31,053 nucleotides of DNA from positions 1 through 31,053 of IMG/VR virus record IMGVR_UViG_3300043410_001741. The stretch is one strand, 5' to 3'. The position numbers and the translations under genes are program-made. Of this stretch, positions 3,697-20,036 are shown piece by piece. The stretch comes from a virus. The notes below the pieces were generated by a model. The model was not told where the DNA came from. It was given only the letters and a program-made list of their open reading frames with translations, and searched no databases. Every line of letters starts with the position of its first letter. Position 1 is the first letter of the stretch.

Positions 3697-4329
3697 TCAA
3701 CGCTTGGATGCCTTGCGGCCTTCGGACATGGCAATCGCCATGGCCTGTTTGCGGCTGGTGACCTCGGGGCCCTTCTTGCTGCCAGAGTGCAGCTCGCCAG
3801 CCTTGAACTCGCCCATGACCTTGCCAATCTTGGCCTGGCCAGCCTTGGACGTCACTTTGCCACCGGTTTTCATGCCGCCGATCATGGGCTGCGCGGGAGC
3901 GACGGGCACCATCTTGCGGCGAACGGATGGCATCTTCACCTGCGTGCGCTCGGTCAGCTCTTCACGCTGCATGCGCGGCGTTTCCATCTTCTCGTGCTTG
4001 ACCATGGCTTGGCGGCTGGGGTATTTCTCGCCGGTGGCTTTTTCGACCACGGGGCCGCCTTTGGCCAGCTTGAGCGTGGGCAAGTTGGGCGCCACAGGCT
4101 TGGAGCCTTTGACACCAGGATTCTTGTTGTCCTTGATTCCAAGCGAGCTCTTGTCGGCGATCATGGTCTGGCCCTTGAAGCCGGGGGCCTGGACTTTGCC
4201 GCCCTTGGCATAACCCGAGTCGCAAGACCCGCCTTTTTCGTACTTCACCGCGCCGCCCTTGGCGTACTTCACGGCGCCGTCTTTGCCTTTGGTGCCGAAG
4301 TCGAACTCTTTGACGTATGTGCAGCCCAT
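3697..4329 (-). CDS. DUF6496-type Lys/Gly-rich phage protein, 210 aa
   Basis: The ATG at 4329-4327 (MGCTYVKEF) is preceded by AGGAGC at 7 bases, which favours it over the longer reading frame starting at 4395. The N-terminal third holds repeats of the type KYAKGG / KYEKGG / GYAKGGKV. The C-terminal block, about residues 168-208, carries GKVMGEFKAGELHSGSKKGP and then SRKQAMAIAMSEGRKA. This closely matches the DUF6496 signature found in many phage structural clusters. The protein is strongly basic and low in complexity, so it could be a DNA- or capsid-associated internal protein, but its function is unknown. It lies between the one-TM protein and the connector promoter. Confidence 0.85.
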   Translation of the reverse strand: MGCTYVKEFDFGTKGKDGAVKYAKGGAVKYEKGGSCDSGYAKGGKVQAPGFKGQTMIADKSSLGIKDNKNPGVKGSKPVAPNLPTLKLAKGGPVVEKATGEKYPSRQAMVKHEKMETPRMQREELTERTQVKMPSVRRKMVPVAPAQPMIGGMKTGGKVTSKAGQAKIGKVMGEFKAGELHSGSKKGPEVTSRKQAMAIAMSEGRKASKR

Positions 4330-4582: not shown

Positions 4583-4603
4583 TGCTTACTGCTCCGGAAA
4601 TGA

Positions 4604-4867
4604 TCATGTGTAGGCAACGTTGACGGTCCCGGCTGCCACGACCACCAGGCCGTTGTTTGCCGCAATACCGTGGCTGGCCCAAGTGGCAATCTCACCGACC
4701 GCCATGGTCTTGGTGTACAGAATGTTGCCGCTGGCCGCAGATGCGTTGTCATAGACCGTGACGGCGCCCGCGACGATGCAGGTCACCGAAAACAGTCCGG
4801 CGGGGGTTGACTTGATCACAGCAGTTTCGGCTGCAACCGGCTTGTAGCCTAATTTGTCGGTCATCAT
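4604..4867 (-). CDS. Small beta-rich structural protein, unknown, 87 aa
   Basis: The protein MMTDKLGYKPVAAETAVIK... is rich in Ala, Val, Gly and Thr, with alternating hydrophobic stretches (LFSVTCIVAGAVTVYD, GLVVVAAGTVNVAYT) that indicate beta strands. An AGGAG ribosome site lies 8 bases before the ATG pair at 4867. It follows the major capsid module, so a head-decoration, neck or minor tail role is possible, but no family was recognised. The preceding gap contains a GC-rich hairpin. Confidence 0.7.
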   Translation of the reverse strand: MMTDKLGYKPVAAETAVIKSTPAGLFSVTCIVAGAVTVYDNASAASGNILYTKTMAVGEIATWASHGIAANNGLVVVAAGTVNVAYT

Positions 4868-4893
4868 GAGGTGATCTCCTGGTTTGGTTGAAG

Positions 4894-4911
4894 CCCCGCG
4901 CGGTGGCGGGG
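4894..4911 (-). other. GC-rich hairpin in an intergenic gap
   Basis: A perfect 6-bp stem (CCCCGC / GCGGGG) with a 6-base loop sits in the 63-base gap between the 69-aa and 87-aa genes. The downstream sequence on the minus strand is CTTCAACC, without a T-tract, so it is not a convincing intrinsic terminator. It might stabilise or process the mRNA. Confidence 0.35.
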
Positions 4912-4930
4912 TGCGTCACAACGCAGGGGA

Positions 4931-5140
4931 TCAGCTCAGAGCTGCGCCGACGGCGGTCACCCAAGCAGAGCCGGTGTTGATCACCAGGCAGTACTCGTTG
5001 TTGCCAGCGCCGTTGTCCGAAATGACGTAGCAGGTGCCAACGGGAACAGCGGTCACAGCAGGCAAATTGGCAGTCGTGGTGACGGGGAACGAGAAGCCGT
5101 TTTGAGAGGCGACGGGACCCGAAAAGGTAGTAGTGCTCAT
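4931..5140 (-). CDS. Small beta-rich protein downstream of capsid gene, 69 aa
   Basis: The protein begins MSTTTFSGPVASQNGFSF and consists mostly of small polar and beta-forming residues, with two Cys (GTCYVIS, EYCLVI). GAGGA lies 4 bases before the ATG. Short proteins with an N-terminal SGP(V)xSxNGF pattern occur near capsid genes of several phages, but their role is not established. It is the first gene after the strong terminator that follows the capsid gene, so it is either expressed by read-through or from a weak promoter not recognised here. Confidence 0.65.
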   Translation of the reverse strand: MSTTTFSGPVASQNGFSFPVTTTANLPAVTAVPVGTCYVISDNGAGNNEYCLVINTGSAWVTAVGAALS

Positions 5141-5211
5141 GATTTCCTCACATGCGAGTTGTGCGCAGCCGTCTGCATGTCGTCGGCCAGGGCGGGCCGT
5201 CTGCTGCGCGT

Positions 5212-5264
5212 AAAAAAGGTGCCCAACAAAGCCCCCGCCTTGTGAGCAGGGGCTTCAGTTGGCA
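5212..5264 (-). terminator. Strong intrinsic terminator after the major capsid gene
   Basis: On the minus strand AAGCCCCTGC (5255-5246) pairs with GCGGGGGCTT (5238-5229) across a 7-base loop, with one mismatch. The stem extends through TTG/CAA-type pairing and TGCC/GGCA, and is followed by TTTTTT (5217-5212). This is a classic rho-independent terminator, starting about 11 bases after the capsid stop codon. Partial termination here would give high capsid mRNA relative to the downstream tail genes. Confidence 0.8.
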
Positions 5265-5266
5265 TC

Positions 5267-6181
5267 TTAGACGCCAGCGGTACCGAACACGCCGCGCGGG
5301 TCGGTCCAGCCAAGCGCGTAACGCTCGGTGGCCTTGTAGCGCATGCTGTCGGTCTCGAAGTCGCCTTCCATGGATTTCTCCAGGCCGCGACGCATCATCA
5401 GCTTCAGACCTTCGGGAGCGTCGGTCTGCACCCACCAGGCGGTGGTGCTGGTGATACGAGACAGGTTGGCTTGACCATCGGCCAGCAAGCCCATCGACTT
5501 CACAGGGTTGATGTCGTTGTCAGCGGTGCCGGTACGCAGCACAGACTTCAGCAGCACCTCAGCCTGGAACACGTTGGAAGGACCGGAGACGATCTTCTTG
5601 GGTGTCAGGCGGATACGCTTGCCGTTGTTGTCCACAGCATTGCGGATCTGGATCAGCATCTGCTCAAGGGACGTCTGCGACAGGGCAGCGGCGGTGGCCA
5701 GCTGGTTGCTGAACGTGCCGTTGACGATCGGGTGAGCCGTGGAAACCAGGGACACGCCGTCACCGCCTGCATACGCGCTGTTGAAGGCGCGGTTCAGGAT
5801 GTTGGCTGCCAAGGTTTCTTTGGTCTCGATCAGGGACTGCGCCAGGTGCTTGGCGTAGGTCTGACCGATACGGATGTGGTCACCGTCCTCGACCAGCACT
5901 TTGGTCAGGGCGAAGGCCAGGCCGTACACCTTGTAGAGGTAGCGCTGCAGGAACAGCACGCCGCCGGACTGGTAGGTCACGGCCATGCCGTCAGGCAGCT
6001 CGGGCGCAGCACCGAAACCGTACAGGACGGGTTCTTCATGGTAGTTGCGCGGGATGCCTTTTTGCTCGCGGAAGACTTGCTTCCACTCGTCAGCACGCTG
6101 CTCATAAACGCCGTCGAACACTTCGTTCAGAATCGGCTCGACTACGGAACGGAAGTCCGTACTACGCATTGGGGTTGCCAT
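5267..6181 (-). CDS. Major capsid protein (HK97-fold, Mu gpT-like), 304 aa
   Basis: The length of 304 residues, the absence of low-complexity sequence and the position after scaffold-like and decoration-like genes fit a major head protein. Recognisable stretches are LPDGMAVTYQSGG (63-74), LAFALTKVLVEDGD (88-101), the helical KHLAQSLIETKETLAANILN (111-130) and STAHPIVNGTFSNQ (147-160). The last is typical of the Mu gpT-like capsid family (HP, then G-T-x-S-N). The C-terminal half contains the conserved pattern of strand, PSNVFQAEVLLKS helix and TTAWWVQTD. The protein self-assembles into the icosahedral shell around the scaffold. AAGGAGG lies 8 bases before the ATG, a strong site suited to high expression. 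No N-terminal prohead protease domain is visible, and no separate protease gene is seen beside it. Confidence 0.9.
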   Translation of the reverse strand: MATPMRSTDFRSVVEPILNEVFDGVYEQRADEWKQVFREQKGIPRNYHEEPVLYGFGAAPELPDGMAVTYQSGGVLFLQRYLYKVYGLAFALTKVLVEDGDHIRIGQTYAKHLAQSLIETKETLAANILNRAFNSAYAGGDGVSLVSTAHPIVNGTFSNQLATAAALSQTSLEQMLIQIRNAVDNNGKRIRLTPKKIVSGPSNVFQAEVLLKSVLRTGTADNDINPVKSMGLLADGQANLSRITSTTAWWVQTDAPEGLKLMMRRGLEKSMEGDFETDSMRYKATERYALGWTDPRGVFGTAGV

Positions 6182-9274: not shown

Positions 9275-9685
9275 TCAGATGAAAGCACGGATGGCGAGCG
9301 GATCGCCGGTGACCTGGCCGATGATGTCCAGGTCGTTGAAGATGACGAACAGGGCCGACTCGCCGTTGGCCAGGGGCACTTCCCAGCGATCGCCGCCGTA
9401 CTTGGGCACGCGAACGTAGTCGCCCGGCTTGCACCAGCTGCCTTCCGGCCAGGAGTCCATGGTGTTTCGGTTCTTGAACGCAAGAGCGCCAACAGAGACA
9501 ACGCGGGCCACCTGGGTGTTCCACTTCTCGGTGTCACGCGAGCCGTTGTCGATGATGATGCCCGAGGCGGTCTTGGTCTTGGGGGTGCGAATCTGCACCA
9601 GGACGCGGCTTCCAAACGGGATGATTCCCGGGGATGCGTCGGGGAATGCCTCCCGCATCGCGTCAATCAGCACTTCAGCTGTCAT
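9275..9685 (-). CDS. GroES-like co-chaperonin, 136 aa
   Basis: The order of elements is that of the Cpn10 fold: PFGSRVLVQI (23-32), a mobile-loop-like RTPKTKTASGIII (33-45), QVARVVSVG (58-66), KPGDYVRVPKYGGDRWEV (86-103) and a closing strand ALFVIFNDLDIIGQV. The SGIII segment takes the place of the GG-I-V-L tripeptide by which GroES docks on GroEL. At 136 residues it is longer than GroES (about 97), as is T4 gp31. By analogy with gp31 it could replace host GroES so that GroEL can fold the phage capsid protein; that is inference. No groEL gene is seen. AAGGAGCAGAAG precedes the ATG. Confidence 0.87.
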   Translation of the reverse strand: MTAEVLIDAMREAFPDASPGIIPFGSRVLVQIRTPKTKTASGIIIDNGSRDTEKWNTQVARVVSVGALAFKNRNTMDSWPEGSWCKPGDYVRVPKYGGDRWEVPLANGESALFVIFNDLDIIGQVTGDPLAIRAFI

Positions 9686-10114: not shown

Positions 10115-12643
10115 TTATCGTGTGCCCGGGTTGATCCCGGTACCGGTGCTGACGGCGATTTTCTCGCCGGTGGCAATTTCTGCTGCAGCCATGCGCATGG
10201 CCGTGGCGTTGTCTGAGTCGTTCATCTGCAGGCGGGCATCAATTTCAGCGGCCGTGCGCTGATTCTCGGATGCTTGGCGCAACTGCTCGGACTGGAACTC
10301 CTCGGCGCGAGACTGCTGCTTGTCGGCCAGAGCGGCGGCATCCAGCTGCGACTTCTGCGCGGCTTTTTGTTGCTCGAGCTGCAATCGTGCCGCGTCGGTC
10401 TGGGCCCGCTGCTGCAGTGCAAGCTGCTGCACCTGCGCATTGAGCTGCGCAATCTGCATGCTGTTGTCTTGCGGCATCTGTGGCGGCTGAGGTGCAAACT
10501 GCTCGGCCATCTTGTCGATCTGAGCCAGCTCCTGCGCAAACTGCGCCAGCTGCTGCTCGATGATCTGCTGGACCTTCACGATCACGCGAACCTGCTGCTC
10601 GGCATCGCCGTCGGCGATCAGGTGCTCACGCTCGGCGCGCTGCACAGCCTCGTGTGCTTGCGTGAGGTAAAAGTTCAGCAGGTGGTCGCGCAAGTGCTGC
10701 GCCATCGGGTAGATGTAAGTCTTGACGATGGCCGGGTTCATGCCAAACATCGGCGACTTCAGGAACGCCAGGTGCGTCTGGATGTGCGCCACGTGGTCCT
10801 GCTTGGGCAGCACGTAGACCGGACGGCCCATCGAGGCGGCCACGTTCTCGCTCACCGGGTCAACGTCGTCCTGGCCAGGCTGAGGCTGCAGCACATCGTC
10901 TGGGCTGAGCTTCAGGTTGCGTAGGAACATTTCCTCGACCTTGCGCAGGTCGTACATCTGTGGCATGGCGGCCGCGCGGGCCTGCACGGCCTGGACCTGA
11001 GCGAAGCGCTGGGCCTCGCTGAAAATCGCCGGGTCGCTCACAGGCACAACGTCCATTGGGCCGTCGAAGTCCTCGGGCTTGATCTCCAGGCCAGATTCCT
11101 CGGCCTCGATATCCTCGTCGGTCAGGTAGGCGCTGTTGATGCGGTGCAGGATCTGGAACACGCGCGCCATCGAGTTGTGCAGGCGCGAATGGATGGAGCT
11201 GAACACCACCATGCCCTGCTCAATGAGCGCCAGGGTTGTGCCCACCGGAGCGTTGGGGTTTTGGTCGGACAGTTTCTCGAACGATGTCTGCACCACGCCC
11301 CTGCCAGCGTCCACCAGGAAGCCAAGCAGCTGGAACAGCGTCGGGCTCGGTCCGTTGAACGGAAGCGGCATGGCCAGCTTGCGAATGTCGTCGACCAGGG
11401 CGCCGCCCTCGATCTCGACCACCTCGGTCGGCTGCACGTTGATGGTCTGCCCACCAGGCCCGCCCTTGAGCTTGATCATGGTCGGGATGTTCTGGATGTG
11501 GGCCGAGTCCAGCAGCGCGCGCAGGGCGCCGGTGGCCGCGCCGGACAGGCCGCCGATCATGTGGGTGAGGCCAATCGGGTAGGCGCCGCGCCATGGCACG
11601 AACGGGAACTCGACAATCCAGTCCAGCTCCTTGCGGCGCTTGTCCTCGGGCTCCCAGTTGCGGTACAGGGCCAGGGCCTTGCGCGTGGACTTGTCGATGC
11701 TGATGATGTACGGCTCCATGCCGTCACCGAAGTCCAAGTGGGTGTAAATCTCAAAGATGGTGCGCAGGCCGTCCTCGTTGTAGCTGGTGTCCTCGCGGCC
11801 CTCGATCTTGTCGTTGGCCACACTGGCGCGGCTGAACTCGATCTGATCGGGCGAGCCAATGACCACATCGGCGTACATCCCGGCCTTGACGCGGCGGTTG
11901 AACTCGGACTTGGTGACGTACTGCACGTGCGTCTTGCGCTCGGCCGAGTAAAAGTTGGTGGCCGCAAACGGCAGGTAAATGTCGTCGATCGGGATGAACT
12001 CAGCGGTCGGGCGCTTCCACTGCGGCGACCACATGAGCTTCAAGTACTGCCCGCCGCCCAGGGGCAATTGTGTCGAAAGCTGCTCCAGCTCACCGCGCAG
12101 CTCAGGCATCTGCTGCGTGGTCTGCCAGTTCATGAAGTCGGCCTTGCGACGGGCTTTTTCCAGCTTTTCGGGCTCGACCTCGCCCAGAATCTTGGACTTC
12201 ACGGGACCAGAGGGGGGAAACACCTCCTTCATGAAGCGGGCGCTGAAGTCGACGCAGGCCTCGACCAGCATCGGGTGCACGACCTTATTGGCGCCGGTGA
12301 ATTGCGCGCCGCCGGGGGCATCGTCGCCCAGGCCGGTGCGGCGCAGGCCTTCCTCGTAGAGCTTGTCGCGCTTCTCGCGGGCGTCCTTGTCGCGCTCGAT
12401 CTTGTCGAGCAGGTCGCTGGTCGCGTCGGCCAGCATGCTGCGATCGACCTCGTCGACGATGTTGGCAAAGTGGGCCTTCTTGTCGGCCACATCCTGCTCG
12501 TTTTTCATGCGGATGACCGCACCACCGTCGTCGGTGTCCTCGACCTCCATCTCATCCTCGGTCGGCAGGGTGACGGTCTCGCCGCGCTGCTCTTCCTCGG
12601 AGTCGTTGACGTCGGTGCCGTTGTTCAGAAGTTCGTCTGCCAT
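10115..12643 (-). CDS. Portal protein, 842 aa
   Basis: The size, the position after the terminase and before the head genes, and the sequence pattern identify the portal, the dodecameric ring through which DNA is packaged and which joins head to tail. An acidic N-terminus (residues 1-60) is followed by a helical arm and VVHPMLVEACVDFSARFMKE. Further on are LGGGQYLKLMWSPQWKRP, FIPIDDIYLPFAATNF (wing/clip region) and a helical part FEKLSDQNPNAPVGTTLALIEQ. The last 150 residues are a Gln/Ala-rich coiled coil (IAQLNAQVQQLALQQRAQ), probably the barrel that reaches into the head. At 842 residues it is larger than most portals (about 400-700), as in podoviruses with long barrels. The gene starts 2 bases after the stop of the PcfJ-like gene. 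Confidence 0.88.
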   Translation of the reverse strand: MADELLNNGTDVNDSEEEQRGETVTLPTEDEMEVEDTDDGGAVIRMKNEQDVADKKAHFANIVDEVDRSMLADATSDLLDKIERDKDAREKRDKLYEEGLRRTGLGDDAPGGAQFTGANKVVHPMLVEACVDFSARFMKEVFPPSGPVKSKILGEVEPEKLEKARRKADFMNWQTTQQMPELRGELEQLSTQLPLGGGQYLKLMWSPQWKRPTAEFIPIDDIYLPFAATNFYSAERKTHVQYVTKSEFNRRVKAGMYADVVIGSPDQIEFSRASVANDKIEGREDTSYNEDGLRTIFEIYTHLDFGDGMEPYIISIDKSTRKALALYRNWEPEDKRRKELDWIVEFPFVPWRGAYPIGLTHMIGGLSGAATGALRALLDSAHIQNIPTMIKLKGGPGGQTINVQPTEVVEIEGGALVDDIRKLAMPLPFNGPSPTLFQLLGFLVDAGRGVVQTSFEKLSDQNPNAPVGTTLALIEQGMVVFSSIHSRLHNSMARVFQILHRINSAYLTDEDIEAEESGLEIKPEDFDGPMDVVPVSDPAIFSEAQRFAQVQAVQARAAAMPQMYDLRKVEEMFLRNLKLSPDDVLQPQPGQDDVDPVSENVAASMGRPVYVLPKQDHVAHIQTHLAFLKSPMFGMNPAIVKTYIYPMAQHLRDHLLNFYLTQAHEAVQRAEREHLIADGDAEQQVRVIVKVQQIIEQQLAQFAQELAQIDKMAEQFAPQPPQMPQDNSMQIAQLNAQVQQLALQQRAQTDAARLQLEQQKAAQKSQLDAAALADKQQSRAEEFQSEQLRQASENQRTAAEIDARLQMNDSDNATAMRMAAAEIATGEKIAVSTGTGINPGTR

Positions 12644-12645
12644 GT

Positions 12646-14838
12646 TTACCCTGCGTTGAGTGCGTTGAGATCGCCCACGATGGCGTCGATTCTAGCCGGG
12701 TCGAAGTCTGCTGTGTGGGAATTCGCAACCAGGCCGCCGTCAGCATAGGCTCGAACGTCCCCGGCTTGGCCACCGTCTGCGAATCGGTAGGCCGACGCTG
12801 GGTCCTGCATCGCGTCGCTGTTGTAGATGTTGGAGCCGACCAGGCCACCGTCGGCGTATTTCTGGACCAGTCCGCCGAGCGCGAAGCCTTCCGCGTTTTT
12901 GCGCACGATGTCCTTGTACTCGTCCTCAGTGACAAACCGCTGGCCACCGCGCATCTCAGCTGGCACGCCCGCTTGATGAAGATCAACAAGGCCAGCGTTC
13001 TTCAGATCGCCGACATTGCTCCAGTTTTGACTGCGCACAAAGTCCCGAACGGCAGGCAGGTACTCGGGATTGGGTGCGCGGTTGGATTTTCCTTTGATCT
13101 GGACAATGTCCTCTGCGGGTTTGATGCCCTTGTTTTGGATGAACATGTCAAACGCCGCGTCGGTGTTGTCCATGTTGTAGCCACCAATCTCATCAAACTC
13201 TTTGTGAAGTTTTCGGGCCTCATCTGGGCCCACAGCTGCGGTAACGTCGTCCCATGTTTTCAGTGGTCGCGGGGCAACCTCAATCGTCACGTGCGGCTGG
13301 CCCTTCTTGTCGCGCAGGCTGAAAATCTTGGACCGGCCCTCGACCACGTCAGGACAGTAGCCGCCGACGCAGTGGCCCATGGTTTCGCCCTCGTATTTGA
13401 GGGCATCCTCCAGGGCCTTGACCGATTCGTCCATTTCGACCGTTTTTTTGCGGTTGAAGTCGTCCATGGTCCGACGCACAAAGTCGTTGAACTCGCGAGT
13501 ACCCTCTTCGAGCCCCTCGTCGAATGCCATGTCTTCTGCGACCTCGCGCCCCATTCTTTCGTTAAAGTCAGGGGGCAAATCCATCTCTGGTTTTTCAACG
13601 CCAATCTTGCGGCCAGTTTCCTTTGGGGCTTTGAGCTCCACCCACTTGAAGCCTTGGTCCGGGTACTCCTTAATCACATGCGTGGCGGGCCCCATGGCGC
13701 GGGCCATGTCGGCCTCAGCTTTGTTGGCCGCACGCCACTCGTTGATCTTGGCCACGCGCTCGACCGCCTGGGGCACGGTGACCTTCTCCAGGTCGGAGTA
13801 CTTCAGGCGCAGGTTCTCTGGCAGGCCGGACGCGGGGTTGATGGCGTTTTTCAGCTCGTCGACCAGGTGCTGCATGCCAAGCTCTTCATTCGCGCCGCCA
13901 AGAAGTTCGTACACGCGAGTTTCAGGTGGGACTTTTGCAAGCCATGGGTCTTTTTCAACAAGCTCGGGATATCCGCGCGTCAAGTCGGAGGCTTGAAGTT
14001 CGTTGAAGAAAGTGTCGGCACGTTTTTCCCATCGCTTTGCAAGGTCGGATTGCGCCATGCCTTCTTCGGGGAATCCAGCGGCGATGCGTTGTTTTGAAAC
14101 GCTGTAGCCTGTTGGCGTTGGGTCGTAGTGCAAAACGCCGCGCTCGGCCAGCGCACGCAATGGGTCCTCGGGTGTGGCCATTTCGTTGCGCATGTACTTG
14201 CCGAGCTTGGTTTCAAGCCAGCGGTTCATGGCGGCTTCGGGCTCAAGGCGCGCACGCTCTCTCGCAAAAACAGCCGGGTCCATTGCGACGCCAGCTTCAA
14301 CGTTTTGAGCGTAAGCGGCATCAAGGTCGCGCAAACGAGCGGCAGGGTCTGAGCCAACTACTCGCGTTTTCATCGGCTCGATGACCCGCTCAATCGTTCC
14401 AGCCAGGAAGTTGCCGCCCTTGGGTTTCACCACGTTCACGGCCGGTTGCCCTGCGGCCATGACGAAGTCACGCCCAGCGCGCGACACCGCCGACGGCAGG
14501 CCAGCGATCGCACGCAGTGGGGAGCCGGGCCCGGTGTAGAACCCGCCGCCAATCTGACCGGCACCAGTTGCCGCGCGGCCAACCGGAGTCTCGCTCACGC
14601 TGCGCAGCGGCAGGCGTCGCTCAATGTCCTCGCTGGTCGGCAGGAATGTTTGCTCGGACAAGCCCGGCAGCATGCGCACCAGGGACTCAATATCGCCCGG
14701 GGCGCCCAGCACGCCAGAGGCCAAACCGCGCAGGGCGGCAAGCGGTGCGTCGGCGGAGGCGCGGCGGTCGTTGAGCTCAGGACGGCGGCGGCCAGCGGAG
14801 CGGTAGCCGATATACGGCTGGTTCAGATCATCGGCCAC
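12646..14838 (-). CDS. Large phage protein with a PcfJ-like motif, 730 aa
   Basis: The start is taken as GTG at 14838-14836 because AAGGAG lies 7 bases upstream; an ATG-less longer frame to 14913 would overlap the upstream gene by 86 bases. The N-terminal 130 residues are Arg/Pro/Gly-rich. A helical middle follows. Near residues 480-520 there is YEGETMGHCVGGYCPDVVEG, then SLRDKKGQPHVTIEV. This is the HCVGxY and (S/V)xRxxxxPxxTIE pattern of the PcfJ-like family. The last 90 residues contain short repeats FALGGLVQKYADGGLVG, FADGGQAGD and YADGGLV, as at the ends of several phage structural proteins. It lies between a JAMM-type gene and the portal, with an 11-base overlap to the former. It could be a virion-associated or injected protein; that is inference. 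Confidence 0.75.
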   Translation of the reverse strand: MADDLNQPYIGYRSAGRRRPELNDRRASADAPLAALRGLASGVLGAPGDIESLVRMLPGLSEQTFLPTSEDIERRLPLRSVSETPVGRAATGAGQIGGGFYTGPGSPLRAIAGLPSAVSRAGRDFVMAAGQPAVNVVKPKGGNFLAGTIERVIEPMKTRVVGSDPAARLRDLDAAYAQNVEAGVAMDPAVFARERARLEPEAAMNRWLETKLGKYMRNEMATPEDPLRALAERGVLHYDPTPTGYSVSKQRIAAGFPEEGMAQSDLAKRWEKRADTFFNELQASDLTRGYPELVEKDPWLAKVPPETRVYELLGGANEELGMQHLVDELKNAINPASGLPENLRLKYSDLEKVTVPQAVERVAKINEWRAANKAEADMARAMGPATHVIKEYPDQGFKWVELKAPKETGRKIGVEKPEMDLPPDFNERMGREVAEDMAFDEGLEEGTREFNDFVRRTMDDFNRKKTVEMDESVKALEDALKYEGETMGHCVGGYCPDVVEGRSKIFSLRDKKGQPHVTIEVAPRPLKTWDDVTAAVGPDEARKLHKEFDEIGGYNMDNTDAAFDMFIQNKGIKPAEDIVQIKGKSNRAPNPEYLPAVRDFVRSQNWSNVGDLKNAGLVDLHQAGVPAEMRGGQRFVTEDEYKDIVRKNAEGFALGGLVQKYADGGLVGSNIYNSDAMQDPASAYRFADGGQAGDVRAYADGGLVANSHTADFDPARIDAIVGDLNALNAG

Positions 14839-15643
14839 AAGAGCACTCCTTGATGTAGTTGAGGGGCGCACGCACTGCGCCGCCTTTTTGGAATTTCTTG
14901 GAACGCAGCACATCGACCGCAGGTCCTTCTATGCGCCGGAACAACTCGGTGTCGGTCGACTCGGGCGACGGCGTGAGCTGCTTGTTTCCAAGCTGCAGCT
15001 CGTGGCGGCCAAGGCCCTGGCCAGAGCGGTACCGGAGCAGGGTCAGCGGGGAAACATCCTCGAGCAGCTCACCAAGGTCGCCGCCGTAGTCGAAGTACTC
15101 GCGGAAAAGCGGGTCGTCCTGGATCGAGCGGAAGGCGCCCTTGCTGCCTGCGCGCTGCAGCTCAAAGCGCGCGGCGTCCAGCATCTTTGGGTCGAAAACG
15201 CGCTGCGGGTTGTCGGTGGCAAAGAAGTTGTACGAGGTTCCACGGCGCATGCCGTCGCGCGTCGGCGGCACGGCAATCAGCGTGCGAACGTCATGGCCGG
15301 TCCTGGTCGGCGGGTAGTTGGTGCTGTAGAAGCTGAAGTCTTGGCGGCTCGGGGCGGTCTCAAAGATCGAGAAGCCGGATCCGGGGTGCGTGTGGAAGTC
15401 CAGGATGGCCGGACCACCAGGAGCGCGCACTGCCTGCCGAAGGTCGTAGGCGTTGGGCGTCACGCTGGACTCGGTGCCGCGTGTGATCGCCGACGCGCCG
15501 CCTTCGTTGGCCAGGCCAATGACCGAGTGCTCGCGCCCGGTCTGCGCCGTCTGGCGCAAGGCCTCGCGGACGACGTCGGCTTGCTGTGGTGCCTCACGCG
15601 CAAGAAGTGCGCGCAGCTTTGCGAGGACTGAAACTGGAGGCAT
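14828..15643 (-). CDS. JAMM/MPN metalloprotease-like protein, 271 aa
   Basis: Residues about 30-140 read as an MPN (JAB1/Mov34) domain: REHSVIGL (37-44) supplies a candidate catalytic Glu (E38), ILDFHTHPGSGF (80-91) gives the zinc-binding HxHP (H84, H86), and APSRQD (97-102) gives the P-S-x-x-D with zinc ligand D102. The distance from H86 to D102 is longer than in the standard HxHx(10)D motif, so activity is not certain. JAMM enzymes cleave isopeptide or peptide bonds, often removing ubiquitin-like tags; phage lambda gpK uses one for tail-tip maturation. The remaining sequence is helical and ends in NYIKECSCGR. Here the gene lies in the head module. It follows the 91-aa gene by 3 bases and overlaps the PcfJ-like gene by 11 bases. 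Confidence 0.75.
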   Translation of the reverse strand: MPPVSVLAKLRALLAREAPQQADVVREALRQTAQTGREHSVIGLANEGGASAITRGTESSVTPNAYDLRQAVRAPGGPAILDFHTHPGSGFSIFETAPSRQDFSFYSTNYPPTRTGHDVRTLIAVPPTRDGMRRGTSYNFFATDNPQRVFDPKMLDAARFELQRAGSKGAFRSIQDDPLFREYFDYGGDLGELLEDVSPLTLLRYRSGQGLGRHELQLGNKQLTPSPESTDTELFRRIEGPAVDVLRSKKFQKGGAVRAPLNYIKECSCGR

Positions 15644-15646
15644 GAT

Positions 15647-15922
15647 TTACCACTTCACTTTGTTGGCCCAGTAAGCCGCGCTCGACGGCCCCTTGGCGAT
15701 GTTCTTGGCGTGGCGGGCTTTGAACGCGTCGCGCTTGGCGGTGGTGGCTGCCGACTCGCCAGCCTTGGGCTTGCCCGCCGTCTTGGCGCCTTGCTCGCCG
15801 AAGCGGATCACCTTCTCCTGGCCATCAAAGCAGGCTTTGACCACGTGGGATTTCGTTGGGTGGCCCGGCGTGCGCTTGGGTTTGTTGCAGTCCATCTCGG
15901 ACTTTTTCACCGGCCGCGTCAT
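15647..15922 (-). CDS. Small basic conserved phage protein, 91 aa
   Basis: The sequence has a motif recurring in phage genomes: SHVVKACFDGQEKVIRFGEQ (25-44), then KRDAFKARHAKNIAKG and SAAYWANKVKW at the end. It is Lys/Ala-rich and probably binds nucleic acid or is a minor virion component, but no function is established. The start shares an ATGA with the 57-aa gene upstream. Confidence 0.8.
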   Translation of the reverse strand: MTRPVKKSEMDCNKPKRTPGHPTKSHVVKACFDGQEKVIRFGEQGAKTAGKPKAGESAATTAKRDAFKARHAKNIAKGPSSAAYWANKVKW

Positions 15923-16092
15923 TTCGACTTCCTCGCGGCGCGCATGTTGTCGACCAGGTTGGGGTAAGGTCGCCCGGCCTTCTCGGCTGCGCGCTTGGCG
16001 CCGGACTTGGCGCTGGGCGAGAGCGCCTTGGGTGCGCCCAAAGAGCTGGGGCGCTTTTTGTCCCAGATGGGCTTGGGTGTTTTAAACGGCAT
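15919..16092 (-). CDS. Very small basic phage protein, 57 aa
   Basis: ATG at 16092-16090, giving MPFKTPKPIWDKKRPSSLG and a Lys/Ala/Ser-rich rest (SPSAKSGAKRAAEKAG). The start overlaps the last 11 bases of the terminase gene in another frame, and GGAAAGG lies upstream. A longer frame to 16230 runs inside the terminase gene and is less likely. It ends in an ATGA with the 91-aa gene. Function unknown; the charge suggests nucleic-acid contact. Confidence 0.7.
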   Translation of the reverse strand: MPFKTPKPIWDKKRPSSLGAPKALSPSAKSGAKRAAEKAGRPYPNLVDNMRAARKSK

Positions 16093-17665
16093 ACGGGTTG
16101 ACCTTTCCTTCACGACGATGGGGCCGATCTTCGTCAACGTCGCGTGCCTGTGGCAGTTCGAACCACCCGTCGTTTTTGAGGTAGATGACCGCCTGCGTGA
16201 AGGTGTCCACATAGTCGTCATGCTCCGCAACGGGGAACTTCGCCACTTGGGTCATAAACGGCTGGGCCCAGCTCACAGGCTGGCCGGGGTTCTTGGCAGA
16301 CTCCGGGATCCACAGCAGTCCAAGCTCCAACGTCGGCGCGGTCTGGTGTGCCCTCGACACCTTGTCCGCTTGTCCGGGATTGTAGCCAACGGCCGGGACC
16401 TTGGCCAGACGCAAGTCCTGCAGCAGCGACTGCCCCGATGCCTTGGCCTCAACCAGCAGCCGGTCTGGCTTGCGGCCCTTGGTGGGCATGCCAGCCTTGG
16501 CCGAGCTGTCGGCGCCGTACTCCGAGCGCCAGTCCCGAATCACCCGGGCGCGCAGGTCCGGATACCCGAGGTGCTCATCCCAGGCGTCCAGCAGCATGGC
16601 GTTGCGCTGGCCTCGGTGCGAAAACACGCCCCAGACCGTGCAGGCCGTCGGGTCGCCAGTCGTGCGCTCAGTGAAGGCGCAGTCGTAGCTTTGCAAGATG
16701 TACTCAAAGGGCGGCAGGCGCTGAGCCACGGGCCAGAGCTGAAAGTGCTGCGTCTTGAGGATGCCGCCCTCGGTTGGCGTGGGATCCTGCTGGAGCTGGC
16801 CCGAGGCGCCGTAGGTGCCCAGCAGCTGCTTGAGCTTGGTGATTTCGGCCTCGCCAAAGCGATCAGGGCAGATCAGCTCACCCTTCGTGCGGCGCGGGTC
16901 GTAGGGCCCAAGCACCGTGCGCCTGGCCTTGCCGTCCCACTCGGCCGGGATGCAGATGTGCTCCCAGCCGCCAATGTCGTCGATGATGTGCCCGCTGATG
17001 TCCTTCTCGTGCAGGCGCTGCATGACCGTCACCATGGCGTCGGTCTTGGGGTTGTTCAGTCGCGTGGACCAGACCTGGTCGAACCACTCAAGCGCGGTTT
17101 CACGCATCGCGTCGGACTGCGCGTCCTGGGCGCCGTGCGGGTCGTCAAGGATCAGGCGCGAGCCGCCCTCACCCGTGGCGGTACCGCCAACCGAGGTGGC
17201 CAGGCGATAGCCGGTCTTGTTGTTCTCGAAACGCTGCTTGGCGTTTTGGTCACCGGCCAGCGCAAACATGTGCCCCCAGCGCTCCTGGTACCAAGGCGAC
17301 TGAATTAGGCGCCTGGCTTTCAGGTTGTCCCGGATGGACAGCGTGCCCGAATAGGACGCGGCGAGGAACTTCTGCTCGGGCGAGGTGAGCCACTCCCAGC
17401 AGCACCAGGCCACCGAGACGATGGTGGACTTGGAGTGGCGCGGCGGGATGTTGATCAGCAGCCGCTGAATCTCGCCGGAGCTCACGGCCTCCAGGTGCTC
17501 GCAGATCGCCTCGATGTGCCAGCTCGGCACGAAGGGCACGCCGGGCTCCATCACGTGCCAGGCCTGCTGCACGAACTCGTACAGGCTGGCGCTGGCCTTG
17601 CGCCGGGCCTGCTCCTTGGCGATCAGGTCCAGCATGACGGCGGGGGAAACGCTCACTGCGGCCAC
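16082..17665 (-). CDS. terL: Terminase large subunit, 527 aa
   Basis: The DNA-packaging motor: an ATPase followed by an RNase H-like nuclease. Walker A is the variant PPRHSKS at residues 74-80 (R in place of the canonical G/K arrangement seen in some families). SRLILDDPHG (169-178) is Walker B, with D174 and D175. The nuclease has SYDCAF (D328), LLVEAKASG (E407) and EHDDYVD (D483/D484), the usual triad of acidic residues. The length (527) is normal. The start is GTG at 17665-17663, 13 bases inside the 3' end of the 66-aa gene, with GAGGCG upstream. The gene follows a terminase-small-type gene by two small genes, and the motif set resembles the terminase group that cuts by a headful or site-specific rule, which cannot be decided here. 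Confidence 0.95.
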   Translation of the reverse strand: MAAVSVSPAVMLDLIAKEQARRKASASLYEFVQQAWHVMEPGVPFVPSWHIEAICEHLEAVSSGEIQRLLINIPPRHSKSTIVSVAWCCWEWLTSPEQKFLAASYSGTLSIRDNLKARRLIQSPWYQERWGHMFALAGDQNAKQRFENNKTGYRLATSVGGTATGEGGSRLILDDPHGAQDAQSDAMRETALEWFDQVWSTRLNNPKTDAMVTVMQRLHEKDISGHIIDDIGGWEHICIPAEWDGKARRTVLGPYDPRRTKGELICPDRFGEAEITKLKQLLGTYGASGQLQQDPTPTEGGILKTQHFQLWPVAQRLPPFEYILQSYDCAFTERTTGDPTACTVWGVFSHRGQRNAMLLDAWDEHLGYPDLRARVIRDWRSEYGADSSAKAGMPTKGRKPDRLLVEAKASGQSLLQDLRLAKVPAVGYNPGQADKVSRAHQTAPTLELGLLWIPESAKNPGQPVSWAQPFMTQVAKFPVAEHDDYVDTFTQAVIYLKNDGWFELPQARDVDEDRPHRREGKVNPYAV

Positions 17666-18146: not shown

Positions 18147-18613
18147 TCTTGGGATCCTTTGGCTTTCATCATCAAGGCTTGCATCTGCGCCAGCTCGGCG
18201 TCGCTCAGGCCCTTGAAGTCCACGCTGGCCACAGCGATCGGGGCACCGTTTGCGCCGGTGTGCTCAACGTGCTGCGTTTCTTTCCAACCGAGCTGGGTCG
18301 CGCCCCAGTACTTCATGAGGTTGGAGTCGCCAGCAAGCGCCTTCTTGAAGATGCCGCCAGCGATCTGGGCGTTGGCCGTTGCCTTGCCGACAACAAGCTC
18401 TGCCGCAAAGTGCTCGCGCAAAGTATCGATGTGAATTCCATCGCGAATCAGCGCGGCAATTTGGTGAAACGGTAATCCGTAGCCGGAAAGCGCTTTAACT
18501 TGCTTGCGCTCGTTTTCAGTCGGAGAAAATGCTTTTCTTCCGGCTCCTTCTCTCGCTCCGCCGTTTTCCTTGATGCTTTTTCGCTTAAGAGTTGGTTTTT
18601 CAACTTTGGTCAT
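18143..18613 (-). CDS. terS: Terminase small subunit-like protein, 156 aa
   Basis: The N-terminus has the signature GGAREGAGRK (18-27), found at the start of many phage terminase small subunits. The helical segment ERKQVKALSGYGLPFHQIAALI (35-56) reads as a helix-turn-helix, followed by DTLREHFAAELVVGKATANA and ALAGDSNLMKYWGATQLGWK. This arrangement fits the DNA-recognition component that binds packaging sites and feeds DNA to the large subunit. A near-perfect GGAGG lies 7 bases before the ATG. It overlaps the methyltransferase gene upstream (ATGA) and sits two genes ahead of terL. Confidence 0.83.
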   Translation of the reverse strand: MTKVEKPTLKRKSIKENGGAREGAGRKAFSPTENERKQVKALSGYGLPFHQIAALIRDGIHIDTLREHFAAELVVGKATANAQIAGGIFKKALAGDSNLMKYWGATQLGWKETQHVEHTGANGAPIAVASVDFKGLSDAELAQMQALMMKAKGSQE

Positions 18614-19980
18614 TTTTTACCTCCGTCTTTTTTGGCCTTGTCTGCCTTGCCAATTTCGCTGCCAATCAGCGAGTTGGGGCTGCGCTCGCCCATCACCTCC
18701 GTGAAGGACCGACCGTCGGACTCCAGGTGCGCGTGCTTGCCTGTGAACTCTTGCCAGCGGGTGACGATCACGTCGCAGTATTTTGGGTCCAACTCCATGA
18801 GCCGTGCAACCCGGCCGTTTTTCTCGGCTGCGATCAGGGTGGTGCCTGAGCCGCCAAAGCTGTCGAGCACGATGTCGCCGCCCTTGGTGTTGTTGAGCAG
18901 CTGGTACTCGAACAGGGCCACGGGCTTCATGGTCGGGTGCTCGCCGTTGCGGGCTGGCTTGTCGAACTCGAGGATGGTGGTCTGCTTGCGGTCGGACGCC
19001 CATAAGTGGCCAGCGCCTTCCTTCCAGCCGTACAGGCAGGGCTCGTGCTGCCAGTGGTAGTCCTGGCGGCCCATGACGAGCGACGATTTCTTCCAGATCA
19101 GGCACTGGCGCACGGCCCAGCCCGCGTCCTTAGCGGCGCCTCGGAAGTTGTAGCCCTCGCTGTCGGCGTGCCAGATGTAGAACACGGCGCCCGGCTTCAT
19201 GACGGCGTCGGCGGCGGTGTAGGCGTCGCGCAGGAACTGCCGGAATTGGTCGTCGCCCATCGAGTCGTTTTTGATGGTGAGCTTTTCCTTGGTGCCGCCC
19301 TCGTAGGCCACGTTGTAGGGCGGGTCGGTCAGCCATATGTCCACCGGTTGGCCGTCGCACAGGCGCTCCAGGTCTGCGATGCTGGTGCTGTCGCCGCAAA
19401 GCAGCCGGTGCTTGCCCATGACCCAGACGTCGCCCTGGACGGTCACGGGGTTGACCGGAACGGGTGGTGCATCGTCCGGGTCGGTGAGGCCCTCGGGCAG
19501 CTCCTCGGGCATGAGCGCGTCGATCTCGTCCTGGCTGAAACCGGTGAGCTCAACGTCGAATCCCATCTCCATGAGGTCCTTGAACTCCAGCGCCAGCATT
19601 TCGTTGTCCCACCCGGCGTTCAGGGCGAGGCGGTTGTCGGCCACGATGTAGGCGCGTTTCTTGGCCTCGGACCAGCCCTTGGCGACCATGACCGGGACCT
19701 GGGTCATTCGCAGGCGCTGTGCGGCCAACGTGCGGCCGTGTCCGGCAATGATGCCGCCTTGCTCGTCGACCAGGATCGGCGTGGTCCAACCCCACTCTTT
19801 GATCGAGGCCACCAGCTGCCCGATCTGCTCATCGGAGTGGGTGCGGCTGTTGCGTGCGTAGGGGATCAGTTTTTCGATCGGCCAGTGCTCGATTTTGTCG
19901 GCAGGATTTCCGGTAAGGATTTCGCCGGTAATTTGTGGGGATTGATTTTCCCCTGTTTTTTCAGTCTGCTGTTTTTTCAT
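18610..19980 (-). CDS. ParB-domain / DNA methyltransferase fusion, 456 aa
   Basis: Residues 31-110 form a ParB/sulfiredoxin-like domain: WPIEKLIPYARNSRTHSDEQ (33-52) and IIAGHGRTLAAQRL (77-90), where GHGR is the typical ParB box. The C-terminal part (about 184-425) is an amino-methyltransferase of the beta arrangement, with the catalytic motif TDPPYNV (218-224) before the SAM motif VLDSFGGSGTTLIAAE (371-386). The enzyme methylates adenine-N6 or cytosine-N4 in DNA. No cognate restriction enzyme lies nearby, so it may protect phage DNA or mark packaging sites; the ParB part may guide it to DNA. The start ATG at 19980 has GGAG 6 bases upstream; a TTG four codons earlier is less likely. It overlaps the terminase-small gene (ATGA), suggesting a packaging link. 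Confidence 0.92.
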   Translation of the reverse strand: MKKQQTEKTGENQSPQITGEILTGNPADKIEHWPIEKLIPYARNSRTHSDEQIGQLVASIKEWGWTTPILVDEQGGIIAGHGRTLAAQRLRMTQVPVMVAKGWSEAKKRAYIVADNRLALNAGWDNEMLALEFKDLMEMGFDVELTGFSQDEIDALMPEELPEGLTDPDDAPPVPVNPVTVQGDVWVMGKHRLLCGDSTSIADLERLCDGQPVDIWLTDPPYNVAYEGGTKEKLTIKNDSMGDDQFRQFLRDAYTAADAVMKPGAVFYIWHADSEGYNFRGAAKDAGWAVRQCLIWKKSSLVMGRQDYHWQHEPCLYGWKEGAGHLWASDRKQTTILEFDKPARNGEHPTMKPVALFEYQLLNNTKGGDIVLDSFGGSGTTLIAAEKNGRVARLMELDPKYCDVIVTRWQEFTGKHAHLESDGRSFTEVMGERSPNSLIGSEIGKADKAKKDGGKK

Positions 19981-20036
19981 GCAGGGCTCCAAGTGGTGGG
20001 TTGTGAATTATGCAACGGTTTGCTGGGTTGTGGCGC

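Follow-up and report, generated by a model that had tools for sequence, protein, structure and literature searches.

PcfJ (PF14284) is a protein domain known from conjugative plasmids. Among phage proteins, the closest described class is that of the polyvalent proteins, which carry mixed enzymatic domains, JAB-clade domains among them, and are injected along with the DNA; their phage members lie mostly among the virion genes of portal–terminase phages (Iyer et al. 2017, PMC5512222). PcfJ has no occurrence in that survey, and our literature search found no paper joining PcfJ with phage effectors. Here we analyse a 31,053-nt stretch of viral DNA (IMG/VR record IMGVR_UViG_3300043410_001741, positions 1 to 31,053; hereafter the window), in which a gene for a PcfJ-type protein adjoins one for a JAMM-like protein. 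A sequence-only reading had suggested that the two could be an ejected effector and its processing enzyme, an interpretation that is partly supported by what follows. On the comparisons below we propose, with moderate confidence, that this is a polyvalent, virion-borne cargo locus with an exchangeable module, in which short GG motifs would serve as sorting tags.

The PcfJ gene (12646..14838, minus strand, read from 14838 to 12646) is confirmed as called: the open reading frame is present in the window and encodes a 730-aa protein, predicted to be a PcfJ-type polyvalent cargo protein, from a GTG start. Both the size and the start had been given by the sequence-only reading and are borne out. 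The start at 14838 is supported by a Shine–Dalgarno sequence, AAGGAG, at 14846..14851 (minus strand), inside the 3′ end of the JAMM gene, and by the recurrence of AAGGAG followed by GTG or ATG at nearly all of 19 junctions compared among relatives. Plus-strand open reading frames of 460 and 534 aa run across the gene and were treated as shadow frames of GC-rich DNA. The Pfam PcfJ profile matches residues 479–524 (13267..13404, minus strand), which contain HCVGGYC (encoded at 13354–13374) and SLRDKKGQPHVTIEV, at an E value of 3.1e-8 and 34 bits, above the curated cut-off of 25, so the assignment to the PcfJ type stands; the match covers positions 76–123 of the 147 in the profile and is thus a partial domain. 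When 44 sequences from the locus were scanned, 20 matched this profile. PADLOC and NCBIfam searches gave no useful match, PDB sequence searches with the PcfJ and JAMM profiles returned chance-level matches only, with nothing convincing among them, and the PcfJ core has no predicted activity of its own.

The surroundings of the gene are those of a virion locus. The order is terminase large subunit (16082..17665, minus strand; Pfam and PHROG matches), a small conserved gene matching phrog_7595 (15647..15922, minus strand), the JAMM gene, the PcfJ gene, the portal gene (10115..12643, minus strand; phrog_1216, 2.3e-13), a GroES-like gene and the major capsid region. The PcfJ gene thus has terminase and portal genes as its neighbours and no conjugation genes, and it sits at the late or virion-gene location in a portal–terminase phage that is typical of polyvalent proteins. 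The window portal shares 54% identity, over 838 aligned columns, with RW_GP094c, the portal of Caulobacter phage RW. In that cultured phage a single tRNA separates terminase and portal and no cargo gene is found there; the cargo therefore looks dispensable. Two further features of the region may be recorded. The GroES-like co-chaperonin gene (Cpn10, 9.7e-10; 9275–9685, minus strand) lies downstream of the portal gene, as do GroES genes in Caulobacter phage RW and in DSL-LC04. At 18610–19992 (minus strand) a ParB_N domain is fused with an N6/N4 DNA methylase.

A profile of the PcfJ core finds relatives encoded by at least 545 IMG/VR stretches, 80 of which we retrieved; the observation thus goes beyond chance. 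In every contig that reaches both terminase and portal, the gene is located between the two. The segment comprising HCVGGYC and SLRDKKGQPHVTIEV is the most conserved part (mean column conservation 0.88) and is flanked on both sides by hypervariable stretches; across 51 aligned relatives, several positions of HCVGGYC do not vary, and neither do both glycines of one C-terminal GG motif (YADGGLV, motif 2). Among named phage records the single long match is DSL-LC04 (OR003939), a metagenome-assembled genome. Searching with a more divergent query added two matches, both short and weak, and plasmid records gave two weak matches to the core (best E value 3e-3).

Immediately upstream of the PcfJ gene, and overlapping it by 11 nt, lies the gene for the 271-aa JAMM/JAB-like protein (14828..15643, minus strand), the module that occupies the slot beside PcfJ in this phage. 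Its signature, HTHP...PSRQD (15338..15394, minus strand), is conserved in relatives, and residues E38, H84, H86, S99 and D102, which make up the E...HxH...SxxD pattern, are invariant in 19 of them. The window protein has no Pfam match, and in one relative (L013) Prok-JAB (PF14464) scores 19 bits, below its cut-off of 25. Detection across relatives was done with a custom profile; PF14464 had missed a known JAMM. The protein ends in FQKGGAV...KECSCGR, in which FQKGGAV (14873..14893, minus strand) is a GG motif. We considered the KECSCGR tail as a protein tag and rejected it: the tail is conserved in slot proteins because the Shine–Dalgarno sequence of the PcfJ gene, and its overlapping start, lie in the same DNA.

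Comparison of the relatives reveals that this slot is modular and that its contents are exchanged. Among 73 loci profiled, 17 carry JAMM and 23 carry DUF6973, with none carrying both, and each of these modules is seen as a separate upstream gene, as an N-terminal fusion or as a C-terminal fusion; in the window phage JAMM is a separate gene and is not fused to PcfJ. ART-PolyVal is matched in four related PcfJ proteins and LPD23 in one, both of them domains that take their names from the polyvalent class, so that, counting DUF6973 and JAMM, members of the family show the multi-domain make-up of polyvalent proteins around a PcfJ core. A portal tree covering 60 loci, a quick build with some long branches and of a gene that may itself recombine, requires a minimum of 20 changes of slot label, and the starred branches force at least 11 for JAMM. 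The exchange among near-identical portals holds regardless of the deep part of that tree: L035 and L050 have identical portals, and the former carries JAMM, the latter DUF6973.

Several loci depart from the common layout. JAMM occurs in large proteins at the same locus in L109 (5812–8949) and L110 (4696–6789, truncated), with no PcfJ core detected in either. In L066, overlapping tandem slot genes (4589–5077 and 4935–5618) both terminate with GG-LA and KECSCG, which resembles the insertion of a second cassette. Between terminase and slot, L043 carries a homing-endonuclease-like gene (306–947; NUMOD3/GIY-YIG-like), and L004 (6554–7030) and L037 (2989–3465) carry 158-aa genes that are HNH-like by eye and have no Pfam HNH match; such genes might drive module exchange.

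One relative joins the PcfJ core to a protein of the virion region. The 1441-aa PcfJ protein of L064 (5599–9924) contains a 289-aa, 57% identical copy of a glycine-rich protein whose gene in these phages adjoins one predicted to act in tail stabilisation. Judged by its composition and the order of the genes, the glycine-rich protein looks like an ejection protein; PHROG matches were obtained for the DSL-LC04 copy only, with the label tape measure, and the region in L064 has no Pfam match. The L064 protein also carries a zincin-like HELYH motif. In L098, the gene after JAMM encodes the glycine-rich ejection-like protein in place of PcfJ. Taken together, the portal–terminase locus, the fusions with ART-PolyVal and LPD23 and the ejection-like domain in this one relative favour the earlier suggestion of a virion-borne, ejected effector.

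The second shared feature is the GG motif. The PcfJ protein carries four [FY]A-x-GG motifs within its last 80 residues, all on the minus strand: FALGGLV (12865..12885), YADGGLV (12838..12858, the motif 2 of the alignment), FADGGQA (12763..12783) and YADGGLV (12727..12747). Among PcfJ-type proteins with a complete 3′ end, 64 of 65 carry the motif within the final 60 residues, whereas shuffled sequences would give about one, and pooled PcfJ proteins give the consensus [YF]A-x-GG-[LAQ]-V, with valine in 149 of 165 instances. Every slot protein whose gene overlaps the PcfJ start also ends in the motif, which stands at the borders of fused modules as well. Thus the C-terminal GG repeats that the sequence-only reading had noticed are present, although they are not peculiar to PcfJ, as they also end JAMM and its replacement modules. 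Across eight genomes a somewhat looser pattern has 60 matches, compared with 16.5 after shuffling (maximum 27), a count that is conservative for the window, where the JAMM and DUF6496 genes overlap longer open reading frames and were missed by the simple gene caller used; like the 64 of 65, it comes from shuffle tests that ignore common descent. The carriers of the looser pattern include PcfJ, slot and glycine-rich ejection-like proteins, with some matches in unrelated ones such as tail fibres. The DUF6496 gene (3697..4329, minus strand), which lies near capsid genes, encodes several KGG motifs (YAKGGAVKYEKGG, YAKGGKV and LAKGGPV), and its product is possibly another tagged virion protein. Because the valine codons at the last position of the motif are varied, a DNA element is unlikely and selection on the protein is favoured, although GGA and GGG are rarer in the motif than overall.

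The sequences establish where the locus lies, that it is modular, that its modules are exchanged and how the motif is distributed; from this we infer packaging, ejection, a tag function of the motif and an enzymatic activity of JAMM. The PcfJ gene and its upstream partner would form a cargo locus for polyvalent proteins, in which the PcfJ-core protein would be produced late, taken up by the virion and, together with the DNA, ejected into the host. The slot swaps modules quickly (JAMM here; DUF6973, ADP-ribosyltransferase and unnamed modules elsewhere), which are encoded either by a gene of their own with coupled translation or as part of a fusion. The [YF]A-x-GG-x-V motif at module ends would most likely be a sorting tag that attaches the modules to the inside of the virion or to its ejection apparatus, and JAMM would act in the new host on host proteins and not on PcfJ. 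We put forward more tentatively a broader version, for a podovirus group: that [YF]A-x-GG-x-V might be a portable virion-loading address, that any effector gaining it, separate or fused, might be packed in the head or ejection apparatus and injected, and that the terminase–portal junction might hold an exchangeable effector cassette.

The GG motifs can also be read as processing sites for another phage or host protease, with JAMM as mere cargo. The presence of a short, conserved motif where nearly all modules meet would suit such sites, as would the HELYH motif of L064 and the view that polyvalent proteins are processed by zincin peptidases (PMC5512222). However, in most relatives no such protease was found next to the locus, and a cut at the terminal copies of the motif would free little; we regard this reading as unlikely.

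A related proposal makes JAMM itself the protease. JAMM enzymes elsewhere cleave after the Gly-Gly of ubiquitin-like proteins, and a maturation protease that cut PcfJ after the Gly-Gly of the motif, at assembly or after ejection, would free tagged modules. The intact signature, the translation coupling of the two genes, the existence of JAMM–PcfJ fusions and the GG motifs at module borders all point in this direction. Against it, 10 of 12 near-complete viral contigs, and DSL-LC04 as well, gave no JAMM match with the custom profile and yet keep the PcfJ protein and the motifs; close relatives exchange JAMM for DUF6973; and cleavage at the motif at the very end of JAMM would free only a short tail. 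We judge this reading improbable. The link between the two genes that had been noted before does hold where JAMM is present, the genes being adjacent or fused in most JAMM-bearing contigs, but the association does not extend to the 11 of 13 near-complete relatives in which JAMM is absent. JAMM as an obligatory partner is accordingly rejected as a general rule, and the earlier idea of a dedicated processing enzyme gives way to that of one among several mutually exclusive modules; processing of the PcfJ protein by JAMM is possible where both are present.

The motif could instead be a mere flexible linker or a recombination leftover at a shared junction. The ends of slot genes are shared with the start of PcfJ, and glycine pairs are common in linkers. 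The same overlap counts against the sorting tag, since the motif could persist by shared-end recombination and not by function. The specific consensus, with its near-constant valine and varied codons, and the presence of the motif in unlinked genes nevertheless make linkers or leftovers an improbable account of it. A role of the PcfJ protein in packaging or assembly at the portal, and not as an effector, would explain its invariant position between terminase and portal, but is improbable given that RW lacks such a gene there and that the modules, ART domains among them, change quickly.

The cargo reading, if correct, would place PcfJ, a domain without an assigned function, among virion-borne phage effectors. 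Nearly identical portals accompanied by swapped enzyme modules are the pattern expected of an arms race, and, should the GG motif be a loading tag, injected phage proteins would become predictable from sequence in a simple way.

Compared with the known systems, the locus shares with DSL-LC04 a PcfJ-like protein between terL and portal (36% identity over 380 residues), which the paper on that genome does not discuss; the DSL-LC04 locus differs in having no JAMM and in carrying its GG motifs N-terminally. With PcfJ of plasmids it shares the HCVGGY and SLRD...TIEV segment, matched above the Pfam cut-off, whereas only 46 of 730 residues match, plasmid records match the core weakly and the context here is one of virion genes. 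The JAMM signature is shared with the RadC/JAB domains of polyvalent proteins and with Prok-JAB, although the window protein has no RadC match and Prok-JAB is sub-threshold and found in a relative only. Podovirus ejection proteins (P22 gp7, gp16 and gp20; T7 gp14–16; PMC8954989) would share the proposed delivery route, and one PcfJ protein shares a domain with an ejection-like protein; here, by contrast, the cargo is variable and enzyme-like, and the searches made brought up no sequence relation to the P22 or T7 proteins. The likeness is to the polyvalent proteins: large modular proteins among virion genes, with ART-PolyVal and LPD23 in related PcfJ proteins. Unlike them, this family has a constant core and one exchanged slot, often a separate overlapping gene, and its modules are closed by a GG motif. 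The locus thus fits the known polyvalent-protein class, which it extends by a PcfJ core, an adjoining slot with exchangeable content and a GG motif common to the modules.
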